The notes under the pieces: model-generated
Told to the model about the DNA's origin: nothing
Seen by the model: the letters and a program-made list of their open reading frames with translations, nothing else
The model's database searches: none
Shown here: positions 1-22,504 of the stretch, in pieces
How positions within the stretch are numbered: the stretch's first letter is position 1
Layout of the letters: the number at the start of each line of letters is the position of its first letter
Position numbers and translations under genes: made by a program
Virus record (IMG/VR): IMGVR_UViG_3300010318_000035
Location: 1-27,692 of that record
Length of the DNA: 27,692 nucleotides
Reading direction: 5' to 3' (one strand)
Source: a virus

Positions 1-2270
1 CTGCTGAAGGTGTGTTACAAGACAACATCGACGCAGAAGAAGCAAGAGCTTTGGCTGCTGAAGGTGTGTTGCAAGGTAATATTGATGCTGAAGCAAGTGC
101 AAGAGCATCTGCTGATACAACTCTTCAAGCTAACATTGATGCTGAAGAATCTGCTCGTATTGCTGGTGATGCTTCAACTTTGGCATCTGCTCAGAGCTAT
201 ACAGATGCGGCTATTAGTAACTTAATTGATGGTGCTCCAGAACTTCTAGACACTTTAAATGAACTTGCGGCTGCAATAGGTGATGATGAAAATTTTGTAA
301 CAACTATTACAAATCAAATTGCTGTTGTACAGGCTGCTGTTGATGCTGAAGAAGCAAGAGCATTAGCCGCAGAAGCTACACTTCAAGCTAATATTGATGC
401 AGAAGCAAGTGCAAGAGCTAGTGCTGATACAACTCTTCAAGCTAATATTGATGCAGAAGCAAGTGCAAGAGCTAGTGCTGATAGTGCTCTTCAAGCTGAA
501 ATTGATGCTGAAGAAGCAAGAGCATTAGCCGCAGAAGCTACACTTCAAGCTAATATTGATGCAGAAGAATCTGCTCGTATTGCTGGTGATGCAGATTTAC
601 AAGCACAATTAGACGAAGCTACTTCTGGTGCTTTTATTTCAAGAGAAGTGCCAACTGGTGCTGTTGATGGTGTAAACGCAACTTTCACTCTTGCTAATAC
701 ACCAAATCCAGACTCAGAGCAGGTATTTTTAAATGGTGTATTACAAAATGTTGGAGCCGAAAATGATTATACTATCTCTGGATCTACTATAACATTTAAT
801 GTTGCTCCAGAGAGTGAAAGTGTAATACTTGCCAATTACATATCTAATGCAATTATTGTTGGCAGTGGGGGATCAGATTTTAGTTCAGTTGGTATTAATG
901 ATCTTACTGATGTAACTATTACTTCGGCAACATCTGGACAAGTTTTACAATATGATGGTTCTGGTTGGATTAATGGCGAAGCACCTAGTACATTTAGTGG
1001 TTCATACAACGATTTAACAGATAAGCCAGATTTAAGTATATATGCAACTGAAGCAGATATGACAACTGCTGAAGCTGACATCGTTGCTTTACAATCTGCT
1101 GATTCTACACTTCAATCAAATATCGATGCTGAAGCAAGTGCAAGAGCTAGTGCTGATACAACTCTTCAAGCTAATATTGATGCAGAAGCTAGTGCAAGAA
1201 CATCTGCTGATTCTACACTTCAATCAAATATCGATGCCGAAGCAAGTGCAAGAGCATCTGCTGATACAACTCTTCAAGCTAATATAGACGCAGAAGAATC
1301 TGCTCGTATTGCTGGTGATGCTTCAACTTTAGCATCTGCTCAAAGCTATACAGATGCGGCTGTTGCAAATGTTGATTTATCTAGTGTTGAGTCTAGATTA
1401 ACAACTTTAGAAGATGACGCATTTATCACTCGTGAAGTTCCATCTGGTTCTATAGACGGTTCAAACACATCATTTGTATTAGCAAACACTCCTGTTTCTG
1501 GAAGTGAGCAAGTGTTCTTGAATGGTATGCTTCAACATGAAGGTGCTGGAAACGATTACACTATTTCTGGCTCTACTATAACTTTTGGAACTGCTCCTGA
1601 AACTGGTTGGAAACTTCATGTAAGTTATGCTACTGGTAGTTATTTGGTAGCTCCTGCTGGTAGTGGAAGTTCATATAGTGATGCTGATGTTTCTTCATTT
1701 TTAAATGGTAACATAGATGGACATTTAATACCAGATACAAATGTAGCATATGACTTAGGTACTGCTGAGAAAAAATTCAGAGATTTATATCTCTCTTCAG
1801 GTACAATACATTTAGGTGATGCTACTATTAGCTCAACTGGTTCTGATGTTACTGTTGGTGGAGTTGATCTATCTGCATTAAATGGTCGTGTATCTACATT
1901 AGAAGCCGCAGAGCCATCAGGTTCACAAATATTTACTAGTGATATAATATCAGTGCCAAATACTGGTGGAGATTCAATATATCAAGATAGATTGATTACT
2001 ACCATTACTCATAATTTAAATAAAAAACCTGAAATACAAGTTTATATTGATGAGACCAATGTGGCTACAAATTTGCATTATGATGCTCCAGGAGTAGTAA
2101 TTCCTCAAGCAGTTGGAAAAGGTAAACTTTTAAGAACAGACTGGATTTCAGAGGTTGCATATGGATATTCAGTGAGACATTTAAATGATAATCAAATAGA
2201 AGTTAGGTTTCACTTTTTGTTTGCGGTTGGAGCAAGTACTATGACAAAAGTAAGAGTAAAGTGTTCATAA
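1..2270 (+). CDS. Tail fibre / virion structural protein, 5'-truncated
   Basis: The reading frame is open from the first base and the repeat pattern continues upstream of the first possible start (GTG at 12), so the true start lies outside the window. About 752 residues are visible. Residues 1-205 and about 360-450 are 18-residue alanine-rich repeats (pattern LQANIDAEASARASADTT), probably a trimeric coiled-coil shaft. A DTLNELAAAIGDD motif lies near residue 78. Two copies of a compact domain with the signature EQVFLNGxLQ...NDYTISGSTITF lie at about 208-278 and 471-541. A module with YDLGTAEKKFRDLYLSSGTI follows, and the C-terminal 120 residues (HNLNKKPEIQVYID) look like a globular tip. These modules are typical of marine T4-like phage fibres, so a role in adsorption or baseplate attachment is likely. 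Which T4 fibre it replaces cannot be told. Confidence 0.8.
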   Translation, partial: AEGVLQDNIDAEEARALAAEGVLQGNIDAEASARASADTTLQANIDAEESARIAGDASTLASAQSYTDAAISNLIDGAPELLDTLNELAAAIGDDENFVTTITNQIAVVQAAVDAEEARALAAEATLQANIDAEASARASADTTLQANIDAEASARASADSALQAEIDAEEARALAAEATLQANIDAEESARIAGDADLQAQLDEATSGAFISREVPTGAVDGVNATFTLANTPNPDSEQVFLNGVLQNVGAENDYTISGSTITFNVAPESESVILANYISNAIIVGSGGSDFSSVGINDLTDVTITSATSGQVLQYDGSGWINGEAPSTFSGSYNDLTDKPDLSIYATEADMTTAEADIVALQSADSTLQSNIDAEASARASADTTLQANIDAEASARTSADSTLQSNIDAEASARASADTTLQANIDAEESARIAGDASTLASAQSYTDAAVANVDLSSVESRLTTLEDDAFITREVPSGSIDGSNTSFVLANTPVSGSEQVFLNGMLQHEGAGNDYTISGSTITFGTAPETGWKLHVSYATGSYLVAPAGSGSSYSDADVSSFLNGNIDGHLIPDTNVAYDLGTAEKKFRDLYLSSGTIHLGDATISSTGSDVTVGGVDLSALNGRVSTLEAAEPSGSQIFTSDIISVPNTGGDSIYQDRLITTITHNLNKKPEIQVYIDETNVATNLHYDAPGVVIPQAVGKGKLLRTDWISEVAYGYSVRHLNDNQIEVRFHFLFAVGASTMTKVRVKCS
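107..193 (+). repeat. 87-nt exact repeat, copy 1 (fibre gene 1)
   Basis: These 87 nt are identical to 2705-2791 in the next gene and are read in the same frame (SADTTLQANIDAEESARIAG...). A diverged third copy starts near 1257. Exact identity at synonymous sites points to recent recombination or gene conversion between neighbouring fibre genes. Confidence 0.9.
340..405 (+). repeat. 66-nt exact direct repeat, copy 1
   Basis: Identical to 502-567 in the same gene and in the same frame (AEEARALAAEATLQANIDAE). It shows tandem expansion of the coiled-coil shaft by duplication. Confidence 0.85.
502..567 (+). repeat. 66-nt exact direct repeat, copy 2
   Basis: Second copy of the 340-405 unit, offset by 162 nt (54 codons, three 18-residue units), so the frame and coiled-coil register are kept. 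Confidence 0.85.
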
Positions 2271-8616: not shown

Positions 8617-8663
8617 TTCATGAGTTCGTGAAAAATTAAATAGGAAGGTTCACGAACCATGAA
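8617..8663 (+). promoter_or_regulatory. Start-codon hairpin of the holin gene
   Basis: TTCATG(A)GTTCGTGAA (8617-8632) is the reverse complement of TTCACGAACCATGAA (8649-8663) except for one bulged A, giving a 15-bp stem. The loop (8633-8648) contains the AGGAAGG ribosome-binding sequence, and the holin ATG (8659-8661) is paired inside the 3' arm. In RNA this should limit initiation of holin translation. Confidence 0.7.
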
Positions 8664-9153
8664 TACAATTAAAGAAATACTATTTTTATTCATAAAAACA
8701 TTTCATTTGACTGATGTATTATCATTACTTAAAAAAGTATTCATATTGATTTATGCGTTTTTATCTCCAATAACCAAAGTAATATATACTATACTATTTC
8801 TCATATTTGTAGATTTAGTGACTGGTCTTTGGGCATCCAAAAAAGAAAAACAAGCAATTACTAGTTCTGCATTATCTAGAACTGTCGGAAAGGTATTAAT
8901 ATACTCAACAACTGTAATCTTAGCTTTTATTGTTAATAAATACTTATTAGAAGGCTTTGGATTTCCAGTGGAAAGGGTAGTTTCTGGATTTATAGCAATT
9001 ACTGAAATGACATCGATAATGGAAAATATGAATAGAATAAGTGATAGACCTCTTTTAAATGATTTAATATTAAGATTTTCAAACGAAAGAGAAAAAAGAT
9101 TGCCACCGAAGCCAAGACCTAATAGTAAAAAAGGTAGAAAAAATAAAAAATAA
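8659..9153 (+). CDS. Holin, phage_holin_4-like family
   Basis: 164 residues. The hydrophobic segment LFLIFVDLVTGLWASKK (about 43-62, with its conserved acidic D and TG-W), followed by SSALSRTVGKVLIYSTTVIL and SGFIAITEMTSIMENMNRI, fits the TcdE/phi29-type holin family (Pfam Phage_holin_4). About three membrane segments are visible and the C-terminal tail is strongly basic (KPRPNSKKGRKNKK), as expected for a cytoplasmic end. It would form the inner-membrane lesion for lysis timing; no endolysin lies in the window. Its position among fibre genes recalls T4, where holin gene t lies downstream of the long tail fibre genes, but this protein is not of T4 gpT type. Translation is probably restrained by the hairpin over its start codon. 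Confidence 0.75.
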   Translation: MNTIKEILFLFIKTFHLTDVLSLLKKVFILIYAFLSPITKVIYTILFLIFVDLVTGLWASKKEKQAITSSALSRTVGKVLIYSTTVILAFIVNKYLLEGFGFPVERVVSGFIAITEMTSIMENMNRISDRPLLNDLILRFSNEREKRLPPKPRPNSKKGRKNKK

Positions 9154-9184: not shown

Positions 9185-11206
9185 ATGGCAACAACAATAC
9201 AAGTCAATAAAATTATTGATGTCGATAAATTAAAATATGAAATAGAATATTCTGGTGATTTTAAAGTAACTGGAATATTACCAAAAACCTCTTCTACAGA
9301 TGCTCAAATTTCAGTAGTAGATGCTTCTACTTTAGCAGATCTCGATGCTGGTCAAATAACTACAGTAACTGGAATAATTAATCTTCATATTAGTGAACAG
9401 AGAAAAAGAATTTTAGTAGAAGATTTACCAGATGATAGTGATGCCGCATCTAATAAACAATATATTGATCAAGAAATTGCTTCACTAGTAGATTCTGCTC
9501 CATCAACTCTAGATACATTAAATGAACTTGCAGCCGCATTGGGTGATGATCCTAACTTTGCAACAACCGTTGCAACACAAATAGGAGATTTAGATACAAG
9601 ATTAGATCAAGCAGAAGCAGATATACTTGCATTGGAAGGTGTAGATACTTCTATTAATACAAGACTAACAACTGCTGAAGGTGAAATAGATACACTTCAA
9701 ACTGATGTTACTGCTATAGATGGTAGACTAACAACTGCTGAAGGTGAAATAGATACACTTCAAACTGATGTTACTGCTATAGATGGTAGACTAACAACTG
9801 CTGAAGGTGAGATTGATACTCTGCAAAGTGATTTATCTAACATAGTTTTAAATGATATTACAGATGTATCTTTAGCATCTGAAGTAGATGGACAATTTTT
9901 AAAATATAATGGTGCTAATTGGGTTAATAGTGATTTACCAATAGCTAGTGCAACTCAATCTGGTATAGTAACAGCTACAAATCAAACTATTGCAGGACAA
10001 AAAACTTTTACTGGTACTGTAGTATGTAACAATCCAGGCAATACACTTTTTGTTGGGGGAATGGTTCATTACGGATCTCAAAATACAATTAGAGCTAACA
10101 CATTAAATATTGTATCATTTAATGGGAAAGATGGAAATGTATTAAGAATATTAAACGAGACTGGACATCCAAGTGGTACTGAACAAACTGCTGGAAGTAA
10201 AATTCATCTATTTTCAGGAGACACAAATCGTTCAATAATATTTACAAGTAATAATGAAGATAGAATAATTATTGCACACAATGGTGGAATTTCAATAAAT
10301 TCTGGTTCAGTGCCAGATGCTCAATTAAAAGTTACTTCAGATTCAGATTCGAGAAAGACACTTATTGTAAAAGGTGCTGTAAGTCAAACTGCAAATTTAA
10401 TTGAAGCTCAAGATAGTTCTGGAACTGCATTATTTTCTGTTGATGCTTCTGGTAATATTTCTTCACCAACAATAACCACATTACAAGCACAAACTGGTGT
10501 GCCTACAGGGTCAGTTATTTCTTTTGCTGGTTCTTCAGCTCCTACTGGTTGGTTAATATGTGATGGTAGTGCAGTATCAAGAACAATTTATTCAGATCTA
10601 TATTCAATAGTTGGTGACACTTATGGCTCTGGAGATGGTTCTACAACATTCAATACGCCAGATTTAAGAAGACGTACAGTAATTGGAAAAGGAACTTCAG
10701 ATGCTTTAGGTGATAATGAAGGATTAACAGAAGGCTCTCGACTTATAGCTCACGATCATTCAGTGCCAGCACATTATCATGGACTTGGAACTTTAGCTAT
10801 AACTGGCGACGGATCGCATGATACTAGCATATCACACGATCATGGAGCTTTTAATGCATCTGGCGATACTAGTGGTGGGGGTGCTCACACACACGGACTT
10901 AATATGGCAGAAACTGGAGGTGCTGGAACTGGTAGATATGTAATAAGAGATTTATCTCCATCATATTTAACAAATACTGCTGGTGGACATCAAGCTGTTC
11001 AAAGTGTTGGTGATCATACACATCCAGTAACACTTAGTATCAATGTGCCAAATTATTCGGCAAATTCAAGTAGTGATGGTTCCCATAGTCACGGTCTTGA
11101 TGGCTTAGTAGGTGATACAACTTCGGGTGTTAGTGGCGATGATTCTATGACTTCTGGTGATTATACACAACCACATTTAATTCTAAATTATATTATAAAA
11201 ATATAG
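9185..11206 (+). CDS. Short tail fibre-like protein with tail collar domain
   Basis: 673 residues. Residues about 90-115 carry STLDTLNELAAALGDDPNFA, followed by coiled-coil repeats of the type GRLTTAEGEIDTLQTDVTAID (about 145-215). A DITDVSLASEVDGQFLKYNG module and a SGIVTATNQTIAGQKTFTG module come next, then one SQTANLIEAQDSSGTALFSV module. Residues about 439-504 (GSVISFAGSSAPTGWLICDG ... TFNTPDLRRRTVIGKG) are the phage tail collar domain found in T4 gp12. Six HxH motifs follow (HDH, HYH, HDH, HTH, HTH, HSH) between residues about 523 and 637, and the end QPHLILNYIIKI is collar-like. In T4 fibres HxH motifs coordinate metal inside the trimer. The gene lies directly upstream of gene 13, near where T4 has 12 and wac. 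Ribosome binding site is weak (TGGGAT). Confidence 0.75.
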   Translation: MATTIQVNKIIDVDKLKYEIEYSGDFKVTGILPKTSSTDAQISVVDASTLADLDAGQITTVTGIINLHISEQRKRILVEDLPDDSDAASNKQYIDQEIASLVDSAPSTLDTLNELAAALGDDPNFATTVATQIGDLDTRLDQAEADILALEGVDTSINTRLTTAEGEIDTLQTDVTAIDGRLTTAEGEIDTLQTDVTAIDGRLTTAEGEIDTLQSDLSNIVLNDITDVSLASEVDGQFLKYNGANWVNSDLPIASATQSGIVTATNQTIAGQKTFTGTVVCNNPGNTLFVGGMVHYGSQNTIRANTLNIVSFNGKDGNVLRILNETGHPSGTEQTAGSKIHLFSGDTNRSIIFTSNNEDRIIIAHNGGISINSGSVPDAQLKVTSDSDSRKTLIVKGAVSQTANLIEAQDSSGTALFSVDASGNISSPTITTLQAQTGVPTGSVISFAGSSAPTGWLICDGSAVSRTIYSDLYSIVGDTYGSGDGSTTFNTPDLRRRTVIGKGTSDALGDNEGLTEGSRLIAHDHSVPAHYHGLGTLAITGDGSHDTSISHDHGAFNASGDTSGGGAHTHGLNMAETGGAGTGRYVIRDLSPSYLTNTAGGHQAVQSVGDHTHPVTLSINVPNYSANSSSDGSHSHGLDGLVGDTTSGVSGDDSMTSGDYTQPHLILNYIIKI

Positions 11207-11216
11207 GTAGCATATC

Positions 11217-12440
11217 ATGTCACAAACATATGTAATTAGAGAACAAGCTGTTAGAGTTAATGATACTACATATACTATAACAAATAGTCCAAGTCCAAAT
11301 ACTGAACAAGTATTTAGAAATGGTATTTTACAAAATGTTGGTGCAACAAACGACTACACCATTTTAGATAAAACAATTACATTTAATGCATCAATAGATT
11401 CCGATGAAGTTATTTTAGTTACTCATTTAATAGATGTAGCTACTCCAGCATCTCCACCATCATCAAGTATAGTCGGACTTAGTTCAAGAAAAGAATTAAT
11501 ACATTGGTGTTTAAGAAAATTAGGCGCACCAGTAATTGATATAAATGTGGATGATGATCAAATAGAAGATAGAATTGATGAAGCATTAATGTATTTTAGA
11601 GATTATCATTTTGATGGTGTTGAACGATGTTATTTACATTATCAAATAACTGCATCTACAATGACACTTCAAACTGCATATTCAGAAGATATAACTAGAG
11701 GTTCCATAATCACAGGACAAACAAGTGGTGCTACTGCTGTTGCGTATGATAAATCTCTAGATGGAAAAACAATTCGTTTTAGATCACAAAATGGAAAAGA
11801 ATTTACCAAAGGTGAAACAATTTCAATCGAAAACAACACAGAAACTGGTCAAATATTAAATTCAGATTCTGCAATAGTTATTGGAGACATCGATAACAAG
11901 TATATTAATGTTGGTCAAAAAGTTATTAGTATTACAAATATTATACCACAAGAATCTTCAACTATTGGTGGGAATCTTGGTGGTATGTTCGACTTTCAAT
12001 ATCAATTTGCTTTGAACAATATGTTTAATCTAGCATCTACCGATCTAGTTACATATGATATATATCAAAGATATATTAGTATGTGGGAATTCATGTTTAG
12101 GGGACAAAAAGGAGTCAGATTCAATAGAAAAACAGATAGAGTATACATAGATCTTCAAGATTGGATTGTTGATCAATGGATAATATTAGAAGCATGGGTA
12201 GCTTTAGATCCAGCACAATATACAGAAGTATACTCAGATGAATTTGTAAAACAATATGCATGTAGTTTAATTAAGCAACAATGGGGAACAAACCTAAAGA
12301 AATTTAGTGGAATACAGTTGCCTGGAGGTACTACCCTAAATGGAAAAGAAATATATGATGAAGCAACTGAAGAATTGGAAAAATTACAAGAACGATTAAA
12401 AATGGAATTTCAGTTGCCGCCAGACTTTATTGTTGGCTAA
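11217..12440 (+). CDS. gp13: Neck protein gp13 with added N-terminal domain
   Basis: 407 residues against 309 in T4. The gp13 core begins near residue 83 (SRKELIHWCLRKLGAPVIDI, DDDQIEDRIDEALMYFRDYH) and ends with QLPPDFIVG; this pattern matches T4/cyanophage gp13, which caps the head-tail connector together with gp14. Residues about 5-72 form an extra domain (EQVFRNGILQNVG ... NDYTILDKTITF) that also occurs twice in the fibre gene at 1-2270. A Pro/Ser-rich linker (PASPPSSS) joins it to the core. A second insert at about 158-235 (TRGSIITGQTSGATAVAYDK, GKEFTKGETI) interrupts the core. The ATG follows TAGGT 10 nt after the previous gene. Confidence 0.85.
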   Translation: MSQTYVIREQAVRVNDTTYTITNSPSPNTEQVFRNGILQNVGATNDYTILDKTITFNASIDSDEVILVTHLIDVATPASPPSSSIVGLSSRKELIHWCLRKLGAPVIDINVDDDQIEDRIDEALMYFRDYHFDGVERCYLHYQITASTMTLQTAYSEDITRGSIITGQTSGATAVAYDKSLDGKTIRFRSQNGKEFTKGETISIENNTETGQILNSDSAIVIGDIDNKYINVGQKVISITNIIPQESSTIGGNLGGMFDFQYQFALNNMFNLASTDLVTYDIYQRYISMWEFMFRGQKGVRFNRKTDRVYIDLQDWIVDQWIILEAWVALDPAQYTEVYSDEFVKQYACSLIKQQWGTNLKKFSGIQLPGGTTLNGKEIYDEATEELEKLQERLKMEFQLPPDFIVG

Positions 12441-12478: not shown

Positions 12479-13327
12479 GTGGCTAGTAACAAATATTTTA
12501 ACTTATATCATCAAAAACAAGAGCAAAAACTTGTTAATGATTTAGTAGAAGAAGCTATCAAAATTCATGCGATAGATGCTGTTTATATTCCTAGACAAAT
12601 AGAAAAAATAGATTCAACTTTTAGAGAAGATCCATTATCATATTTTAATGATTATCATCATATTGAAGTTTATATCAAAAACTCAGATGGTTTTGAAGGT
12701 GACGGTGACATATTCAGAAAGTTTGGTGTAGAAATTAAAAATCAAATAACTTTTACAATTTCTAGAAATAGTTTTGTTAAAACTTTTGGTAAAGAGTTAG
12801 AAAGACCAAGAGAAGGTGATTTAATTTATCTACCAATGAGTACAGCAGATGATCTATATGAAATACGATTTGTTAAAGAAGACTCTGTTTTTTATAACTT
12901 AGGCGAATTCTATACTTACGACATACAATGTGAAGTATTTACAGCTCAAGATGAAAGTATTTCTACTGGCATCGAAGAAGTTGATGACATTGGAAATGAT
13001 ATGTCAGAACTCTTTTTACTTTCTATAGAAAATTCTACTGGAGAATTTACAGATAACGAAATAATTTATCAAGGCGATTCTGCAATAGGTGCTACAGCAA
13101 GAGCTAACTTTGTAGAATATGTTTCAGATACTGAAATAAAAGTTAAAAATTTATTTCAATCATTTTTGCCAGAAAACGGTGTGGTAAAAGGGAATACCTC
13201 TGGTGTAGAAGCAATACTAACACAAGCAATCGACACTTCTGATATTCAAGACGACTTTTCTGCACAGAATAAAAGTTTTGTTGTCATAGATTTTAGTGAA
13301 AGTAATCCATTTTCTGAGGATGAATAA
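12479..13327 (+). CDS. gp14: Neck protein gp14
   Basis: 282 residues against 256 in T4, starting at GTG. The N-terminus (KYFNLYHQKQEQKLVNDLVE, AIDAVYIPRQ, DPLSYFNDYHHIEVYIKN) is characteristic of T4-type gp14, which closes the connector with gp13 after DNA packaging. Residues about 185-265 are a beta-type module (NEIIYQGDSAIGATARA, VVKGNTSGVEAILTQA) resembling the insert in gp13. The gene ends with an acidic tail (SNPFSEDE) and shares one base with the next gene (TAATG). Confidence 0.9.
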   Translation: MASNKYFNLYHQKQEQKLVNDLVEEAIKIHAIDAVYIPRQIEKIDSTFREDPLSYFNDYHHIEVYIKNSDGFEGDGDIFRKFGVEIKNQITFTISRNSFVKTFGKELERPREGDLIYLPMSTADDLYEIRFVKEDSVFYNLGEFYTYDIQCEVFTAQDESISTGIEEVDDIGNDMSELFLLSIENSTGEFTDNEIIYQGDSAIGATARANFVEYVSDTEIKVKNLFQSFLPENGVVKGNTSGVEAILTQAIDTSDIQDDFSAQNKSFVVIDFSESNPFSEDE

Positions 13328-22153: not shown

Positions 22154-22504
22154 ATGAATATTGGATTATCACATTTAATAACACATATAAAACAACCAAG
22201 TGAGGTGTTGCCTATAGATGTGAGTTTCAGTAAACTTCATGTGTTACCTAGAGGTGCTACAGAAATAGTAGCAACTCAAGCATCTGCAAAAAGATGGAGA
22301 AGAAAATATCCTAATGATATTGAGCAAGTAGACAGTTTTTTACTATCGACCGAGCCAGAAATACTAGATCCAAACAAAACATCTGTAAGGGTGGTAGCGG
22401 TTGGTGGTGAAGATAACTATGATTATCAAATTACCCTATTGGTTACATTTGATAATTCATCCAAAATAGAACAAGAAATATTTGTTAGAGTAAGAGAAGA
22501 TTAA
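22154..22504 (+). CDS. Hypothetical protein paired with the 142-residue gene
   Basis: 116 residues, beginning 6 nt after the previous stop with no clear ribosome-binding site, so translation is probably coupled. The C-terminal strand pattern (TSVRVVAVGGEDNYDYQITL, LVTFDNSSKIEQEIFVRVRE) resembles small Ig-like beta domains that accompany the 142-residue family in other phages, where some are described as fibre-tail adaptors. That similarity is from memory of the pattern. The middle is basic (AKRWRRKYPND). Function is unknown. Confidence 0.5.
   Translation: MNIGLSHLITHIKQPSEVLPIDVSFSKLHVLPRGATEIVATQASAKRWRRKYPNDIEQVDSFLLSTEPEILDPNKTSVRVVAVGGEDNYDYQITLLVTFDNSSKIEQEIFVRVRED

Follow-up and report, generated by a model that had tools for sequence, protein, structure and literature searches.

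Neck fibres such as the whiskers of T4 assist in the attachment and retraction of the tail fibres, and on other virions the fibre brings an anchor of its own, as with the N-terminal domains of the T7 gp17 type, which fix their fibres to the virion. In T4 the holding site is described as domain III of the neck protein gp13 (residues 190-239), which retains fibritin trimers around the neck, the fibres later touching the long tail fibres (PMC12270204). Different arrangements are described for two further phages: the fibres of XM1 sit on the neck through the N-terminal domain of gp40 (PMC10457771), and in A-1(L) the neck ring together with gp82 carries the neck fibres (PMC10966104). A small module found away from the neck is also relevant here, namely XD2/XD3, reported as a trimer-assembly motif through which T4 gp10 and CBA120 TSP4 bind further trimeric proteins of the fibre or baseplate (PMC8825819).

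We report here a gp13 homologue that carries a fibre-type domain fused to its N-terminus, and we confirm that the fusion is real and conserved within one uncultured T4-like group. The DNA analysed, hereafter the window, is a 27.7-kb fragment (27,692 nucleotides) of an uncultured T4-like phage taken from a virus record, on which fibre genes are followed by a holin, a tail-collar-domain protein, gp13, gp14, gp15, terminase, sheath, portal, scaffold and more late genes (Table 1); the portal gene is a presumed one, named from its position. gp13 lies between the fibre/collar gene and gp14, gp15 and gp17, as expected for a homologue of T4 gp13. Among the matches listed, the window terminase is at best 54-57% identical to those of cultured cyanophages and a pelagiphage. 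Because the left edge of the window cuts fibre 1, the GTG start listed for that gene is an edge artefact; in relatives the same protein (protein B) starts MSTQIRGNKQIK. On one related contig (G006) there is no collar-domain gene between holin and gp13 and the extension is still present, so that the collar neighbour is not an obligate partner.

Several other features of this neighbourhood were recorded. The holin (8659-9153; PF05105, 44.9 bits at a cut-off of 22.2) lies within the structural cluster, two genes before gp13, and four other contigs have a holin-like gene of about 160-170 aa in the corresponding region. Tandem repeats of 54, 63, 108 and 117 bases, at 340-569, 1094-1296, 2507-2745 and 9657-9832 of the window, encode coiled-coil-like stretches in the fibre and collar proteins. 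Between protease and scaffold, 22154-22504 encodes a 116-aa protein whose match to PF23148 (podophage GP4 fibre-tail adaptor gp77; 21.8 bits, cut-off 27) stays below threshold. Rfam found nothing in the window at gathering thresholds.

Table 1. Neck and fibre features of the window, in window coordinates.
Feature	Position	Strand	Basis
Fibre 1 (protein B), 5' end missing, open at left window edge	3..2270	+	stop-to-stop frame, 755 aa
Fibre 1 copy B1, nearest kin of the neck domain	618..845	+	homology search, tree
Fibre 1 copy B2	1407..1634	+	homology search, tree
Tail-collar-domain protein adjoining gp13 (T4 wac position)	9185..11206	+	PF07484, E 1.2e-22
gp13 (T4 gp13 / head-tail adaptor Ad2 homologue), 407 aa	11217..12440	+	phrog_211, residues 86-399, E 9.5e-42; T4 gp13 by profile alignment and fold
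gp13 N-terminal fibre-type beta domain, residues about 2-74	about 11220..11438	+	fibre 1 homology, shuffle control, AlphaFold
gp13 linker, residues 75-86, Pro/Ser-rich in window	11439..11474	+	low model confidence; variable among relatives
gp13 core, T4 gp13 1-309 minus T4 residues 190-232	11475..12437	+	hhalign
Second inserted beta domain within core, residues 150-222	11664..11882	+	sequence comparison with relatives and T4; fold
gp14 (head closure Hc2)	12479..13327	+	PF11649, E 4e-30; phrog_460, E 1.2e-61

As homology to phrog_211 begins at about residue 86, the first ~85 residues of gp13 are extra, and it is these that resemble fibre 1. A search within the record from which the window comes matched gp13 residues 12-73 to fibre 1 at 663-848 with 52% identity (E 7e-20) and residues 11-62 to the same gene at 1449-1604 with 42% identity (E 4e-12). 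The Smith-Waterman score of residues 1-75 against fibre 1 was 175, as compared to a mean of 35 and a maximum of 66 over 2000 shuffles and to 26-39 for five other window proteins used as a control. These E values and the shuffle control bear out the initial annotation, which had matched the gp13 N-terminus to two domains of the first fibre gene; the motifs that it took to be shared (EQVF-NG-LQ, NDYTI and TITF) are seen in the extension and in the fibre copies, and its boundaries of 11229-11433 were correct to within a few residues. The Pro/Ser-rich hinge that it described holds for the window; among the relatives the linker is often acidic instead. A PDB sequence search with the domain profile returned a weak match to K1 capsule depolymerase (E 0.0016), two weaker ones and nothing else. 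A Pfam search gave no match for window gp13 or its extension, and in a Pfam scan of 23 domain copies DUF4183 was the most frequent match (9/23, best E 0.0018), with one weak CBM_X2 (E 0.089).

The remainder of the protein is a recognisable T4 gp13. hhalign aligned window residues 83-407 to T4 gp13 1-309 with a probability of 99.9, and in a Foldseek search with gp13 the first six ranks were all T4 gp13 (E 2e-11 to 1e-8). The linker is the least confident stretch of the AlphaFold model between domain and core, with a pLDDT of about 63 that falls below 50 at residues 78-81. The core carries a second beta insert that is missing from T4 gp13 and present in gp13 relatives both with and without the extension; its predicted fold is similar to residues 765-844 of the T4 baseplate chain 5iv5_BJ (Z 7.2), and phrog_358 weakly matches residues 146-238 (E 6e-5). 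That this insert might be common to window gp14 or to baseplate or fibre proteins was considered and set aside, as the profile search was unsupportive (best other E 0.09). There is no in-frame ATG, GTG or TTG in window gp13 from codon 2 to the core, and therefore no core-only product would be made in frame from such a codon; one of the 23 relatives (L025) likewise has no ordinary start codon ahead of the core, and the others have some.

The AlphaFold model of the extension (pLDDT mostly 87-91) has strands at residues 3-10, 18-20, 31-34, 47-50, 53-56 and 66-74, and the first fibre copy, predicted from fibre-type copies only (pLDDT 90.6), has the same strand order. The initial annotation would have been contradicted by unrelated folds among the three copies; for the two that were modelled the strand order was the same and the neighbours among solved structures were mostly the same. 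The extension superposes on XD2 of CBA120 TSP4 (residues 187-250) with Z 8.1 and an rmsd of 1.6 over 60 residues at 17% identity, and the fibre copy with Z 7.8 and an rmsd of 2.1 over 64; the match of the extension to the T7 gp17 N-terminus is at Z 6.7 (rmsd 2.7 over 64). Both models also resemble an LME-1 portal-tail chain, the T7 gp17 N-terminus and the T5/DT57C head-completion proteins, and the fibre copy is in addition similar to residues 157-258 of the T4 baseplate chain 5iv5_AC (Z 5.9), which we take to be gp10 from its chain length. The resemblance of the predicted folds to XD2, T4 gp10 and T7-type fibre anchors, at Z of about 7-8, is no more than suggestive, other beta proteins scoring 6-7.

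A scan of viral contigs found 213 relatives, of which 80 were kept. Searching gp13 homologues for the extension, as had been proposed at the outset, found it in each of the 23 close relatives in which the start of gp13 was readable (L004-L025 and L029; core about 65-75% identical) and in none of the 15 next relatives with a readable start (L030-L036, L038-L045). In a wider profile scan it was absent from all of 79 further gp13 loci (L130-L208), which have at most 19 open residues ahead of the core. Loci L046-L083 were not scored for the gp13 start, the best core match there beginning within the core; L026 has a partial domain at a contig edge, and L027, L028 and L037 end inside the core. L024, with its gp13 frame cut short, and L029, with gp13 DNA identical to that of L008, were omitted from row set A1 and from the neck rows of the trees, and L119, a copy of L118, from row set A3.

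Among cultured phages, 1225 records match gp13 and the extension was found in none of them. Searched alone against 50,697 phage records, the extension matched only gp359 of Bacillus phage G (two records of one phage, E 2e-4), and B1 as a query returned the same protein and one Moorella phage. Several apparent extensions were rejected: the alignments for S-CAM3 and AG-345-E15 cross stop codons, L151 and L165 have no open frame upstream, the match of P-SSM2 from residue 70 is not an extension as its gp13 starts at the core, and the extra length of S-CAM9 gp13 (373 aa, viral fold library) is an insertion within the core rather than at the N-terminus. The fusion has nevertheless been deposited in public databases already, judging by the length and identity of UniProt A0A6J5M2L2, a protein of 408 aa from an uncultured Caudovirales phage with 62% identity over 407 alignment columns; the entry is annotated just as 'Neck protein', and we saw no remark on the domain in it. 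Our searches of the open-access literature on fused neck proteins, fibritin binding and Ig-like neck domains found no report of such a fusion.

Over the 231 pairs formed by 22 gp13s, the extension averages 52% identity and the core 69%. The six closest pairs give dN/dS values of 0.04-0.16 in the extension, as compared to 0.04-0.06 in the core; the extension is under purifying selection, though of a looser kind than the core.

The domain profile recovered 39 loci, 22 of them gp13 and 17 fibre-type proteins. Contigs of the clade that reach far enough upstream have four copies of the domain, one in protein A, two in protein B and one in gp13; the protein A copy is C-terminal in 5/5 contigs (the protein being about 856 aa where complete), and in protein B copy B1 is near the N-terminus and B2 at or near the C-terminus. 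Protein A (L227 8812-11382, with equivalents in G002, G003, G006 and G017) is encoded upstream of fibre 1 and ends one residue after the domain; its gene would be expected to the left of the window edge. Proteins A and B have in common an N-terminal TKIRGN/TQIRGN motif. Fibre-type copies occur in 5/5 clade contigs extending into the A and B genes as compared to 2/12 records with an extension-free gp13; of these twelve records, ten had no match to the fibre-type profile, one had five matches and one had a single weak one.

When 59 copies were placed in a tree, the 22 from the neck fell on one side of a branch with support of 94/86, short of the tool's star, and the neck and B1 copies together fall on one side of a branch with 99/94, the window's own B1 being the closest fibre copy. 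This topology fits a single transfer between fibre protein B and gp13 that would have preceded the divergence of the sampled members. The direction was probably from fibre to neck, because the domain is widely used in fibres and is confined to one group of gp13s. Fibre genes are mosaic on the contigs of L004, L011, L012, L015 and L029, with B1 97-99% identical where the gp13 cores are 68-70% identical, and these genes seem to move between the phages independently of gp13.

It had been suggested that the fused domain acts in place of wac. Window gp13 indeed has no counterpart of T4 residues 190-232 (43 residues), which hhalign places between window residues 329 and 330, and the C-terminal domain of fibritin (PF07921) was found in none of six contigs of the group, all of them fragments, with T4 as the positive control at E 2e-34. 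Fibritin was likewise not found in HTVC008M and P-SSM2, however, and the gp13s of these two phages and of S-CAM3 are without domain III and without the extension. As extension-free cyanophages and pelagiphages are thus also without fibritin and domain III, the extension is not a simple successor of fibritin and a dock at the neck is not required; the idea of a direct fibritin replacement was dropped, and the suggestion that the domain stands in for wac is not supported.

What might the neck copies do instead? We consider that their most likely role is to dock or hold fibres, a reading to which we give about an even chance. In this scenario a fibre module would have been duplicated once onto the N-terminus of gp13, with a short linker running from it to helix 1 of the core, and twelve copies would ring the neck if the assembly follows the T4 dodecamer. 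Residues 24-25 of T4 gp13 are reported to contact gp14 and D51 to contact the portal (PMC12270204), and going by these contacts helix 1 probably begins on the portal side, which would place the domain on the outer, head-proximal side of the neck ring. The neck copies might then attach fibre B through its related domain B1, or another fibre. Docking is favoured because the predicted fold resembles virion modules that dock fibres, and because the holding of fibritin by domain III of T4 gp13 makes the neck adaptor a known fibre-holding site; A-1(L) and XM1 likewise carry fibres at the neck.

Several observations count against docking, among them the lack of co-variation between B1 and the neck domain described below. 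Z values of 7-8 can come from a common beta arrangement, and head-completion proteins of T5 and DT57C are among the neighbours of the predicted folds. There is no simple correspondence between twelve neck copies and trimeric fibres. For 19 of the 23 fibre-type copies used, moreover, the domain forms the C-terminal end of its protein, which is not the attachment end of a fibre-type protein. Lastly, the L021 subgroup (contig G004), with its differing fibre region and weak matches to the fibre domain, still keeps the extension.

A more specific proposal is that of a built-in fibre socket, in which the twelve B1-like gp13 domains would pair with B1 of fibre B or with the end domain of protein A and fibritin would be unneeded; we regard this as a tentative possibility. 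The socket would be made from a copy of the joint domain of the fibre itself. The absence of co-variation between B1 and the neck domain counts against a tight pairing. B1 of L015 and of L004 are 99% identical and their neck domains 49% identical, the correlation of neck with B1 was 0.31 as compared to 0.61 for neck with core (15 pairs, six contigs, the gp13 of L029 being taken as that of L008 because their DNA is identical), and the neck domain was no closer to its own B1 than to the B1 of other phages. Co-evolution of the two domains found no support in these 15 pairs.

Alternatively, the domain might brace the neck at the portal vertex, clamping capsid or portal and absorbing the mismatch between 12-fold and 5-fold symmetry, with its fibre ancestry incidental. 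If the contacts of T4 gp13 apply here, an addition at the N-terminus would come out close to the capsid, the neck 1 protein of Milano is described with a beta-sandwich at the same place (PMC10491603), and the head-completion proteins of T5 and DT57C are described with a small beta domain of similar kind in contact with the portal (PMC10713586). Yet the closest kin in sequence are fibre domains, B1 specifically, the extension diverges faster than the core (52% against 69%), which would not be expected of a capsid contact, and the swing domain of T4 gp13 already does such bracing; we think this role unlikely.

Equally unlikely in our estimation is a decorated collar on which twelve beta modules would bind weakly to cell surfaces, polysaccharide or particles and hold no fibre. 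Weak binding of this kind is the role usually proposed for the Ig-like domains of other phage structural proteins. The extension does vary more than the core, most clearly between L016 and L017 (56% identity in the extension, 87% in the core), Ig-like domains displayed on head and tail proteins are described for DT57C (PMC10713586), and the collar spikes of XM1 have been proposed as host sensors (PMC10457771). The Pfam scan of the 23 copies gave no convincing carbohydrate-binding or Ig-like family match, however; the nearest folds are joint or anchor modules, and within the fibre proteins the copies are found at joints or ends and are not arrayed as display repeats. It is very improbable that the extension is a neutral recombination remnant, roleless in the virion or removed in maturation, as although a fusion could easily arise from fibre genes that lie upstream of gp13 and a fibre module that is mosaic, it is kept in every close relative with a readable start, with dN/dS of at most 0.16 in the closest pairs and the sequence signature of the fold retained at about 50% identity.

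Whichever role is correct, a fibre module has apparently been moved onto the neck ring in one recognisable step, with domains of the donor type still nearby. If the neck copies do dock fibres, this would be a simple route to building or replacing a neck-fibre system, and if they form a socket that pairs with B1 it would represent a second, independent solution to the problem of fibre retention that T4 has solved at its neck. Should no fibre dock there at all, it would still be a clear example of a connector protein on which a fibre domain has become fixed and is kept by purifying selection. In gp13 residues 1-90 and fibre protein B the group also offers a candidate pair of proteins whose in vitro study would need no phage in culture.

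Of the described systems, T4 gp13 with fibritin (Wac) comes closest in that the core protein is the same and, as described, an added gp13 domain holds neck fibres (PMC12270204); it differs in that domain III of T4 is an internal insertion at residues 190-239, whereas the added domain of the window is N-terminal and fibre-derived. The XD2/XD3 modules of CBA120 TSP4 and T4 gp10 also have the form of a short module on linkers, with a beta fold that the predicted one seems to resemble, but as reported they belong to trimeric proteins of the baseplate or tailspike, to which they recruit partners that are trimeric too (PMC8825819), while in the window the module is part of the neck adaptor. XM1 gp40 and A-1(L) gp82 are alike in that neck fibres of a myophage are held through a small N-terminal domain, which in these descriptions belongs to the fibre and not to the neck ring (PMC10457771, PMC10966104). 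With fibre N-termini of the T7 gp17 type (T7, P-SCSP1u, PhiM1) the domain again shares a similar predicted fold, and there the virion provides the socket and the fibre the domain, whereas in the phages described here the domain is on the ring protein of the virion itself.
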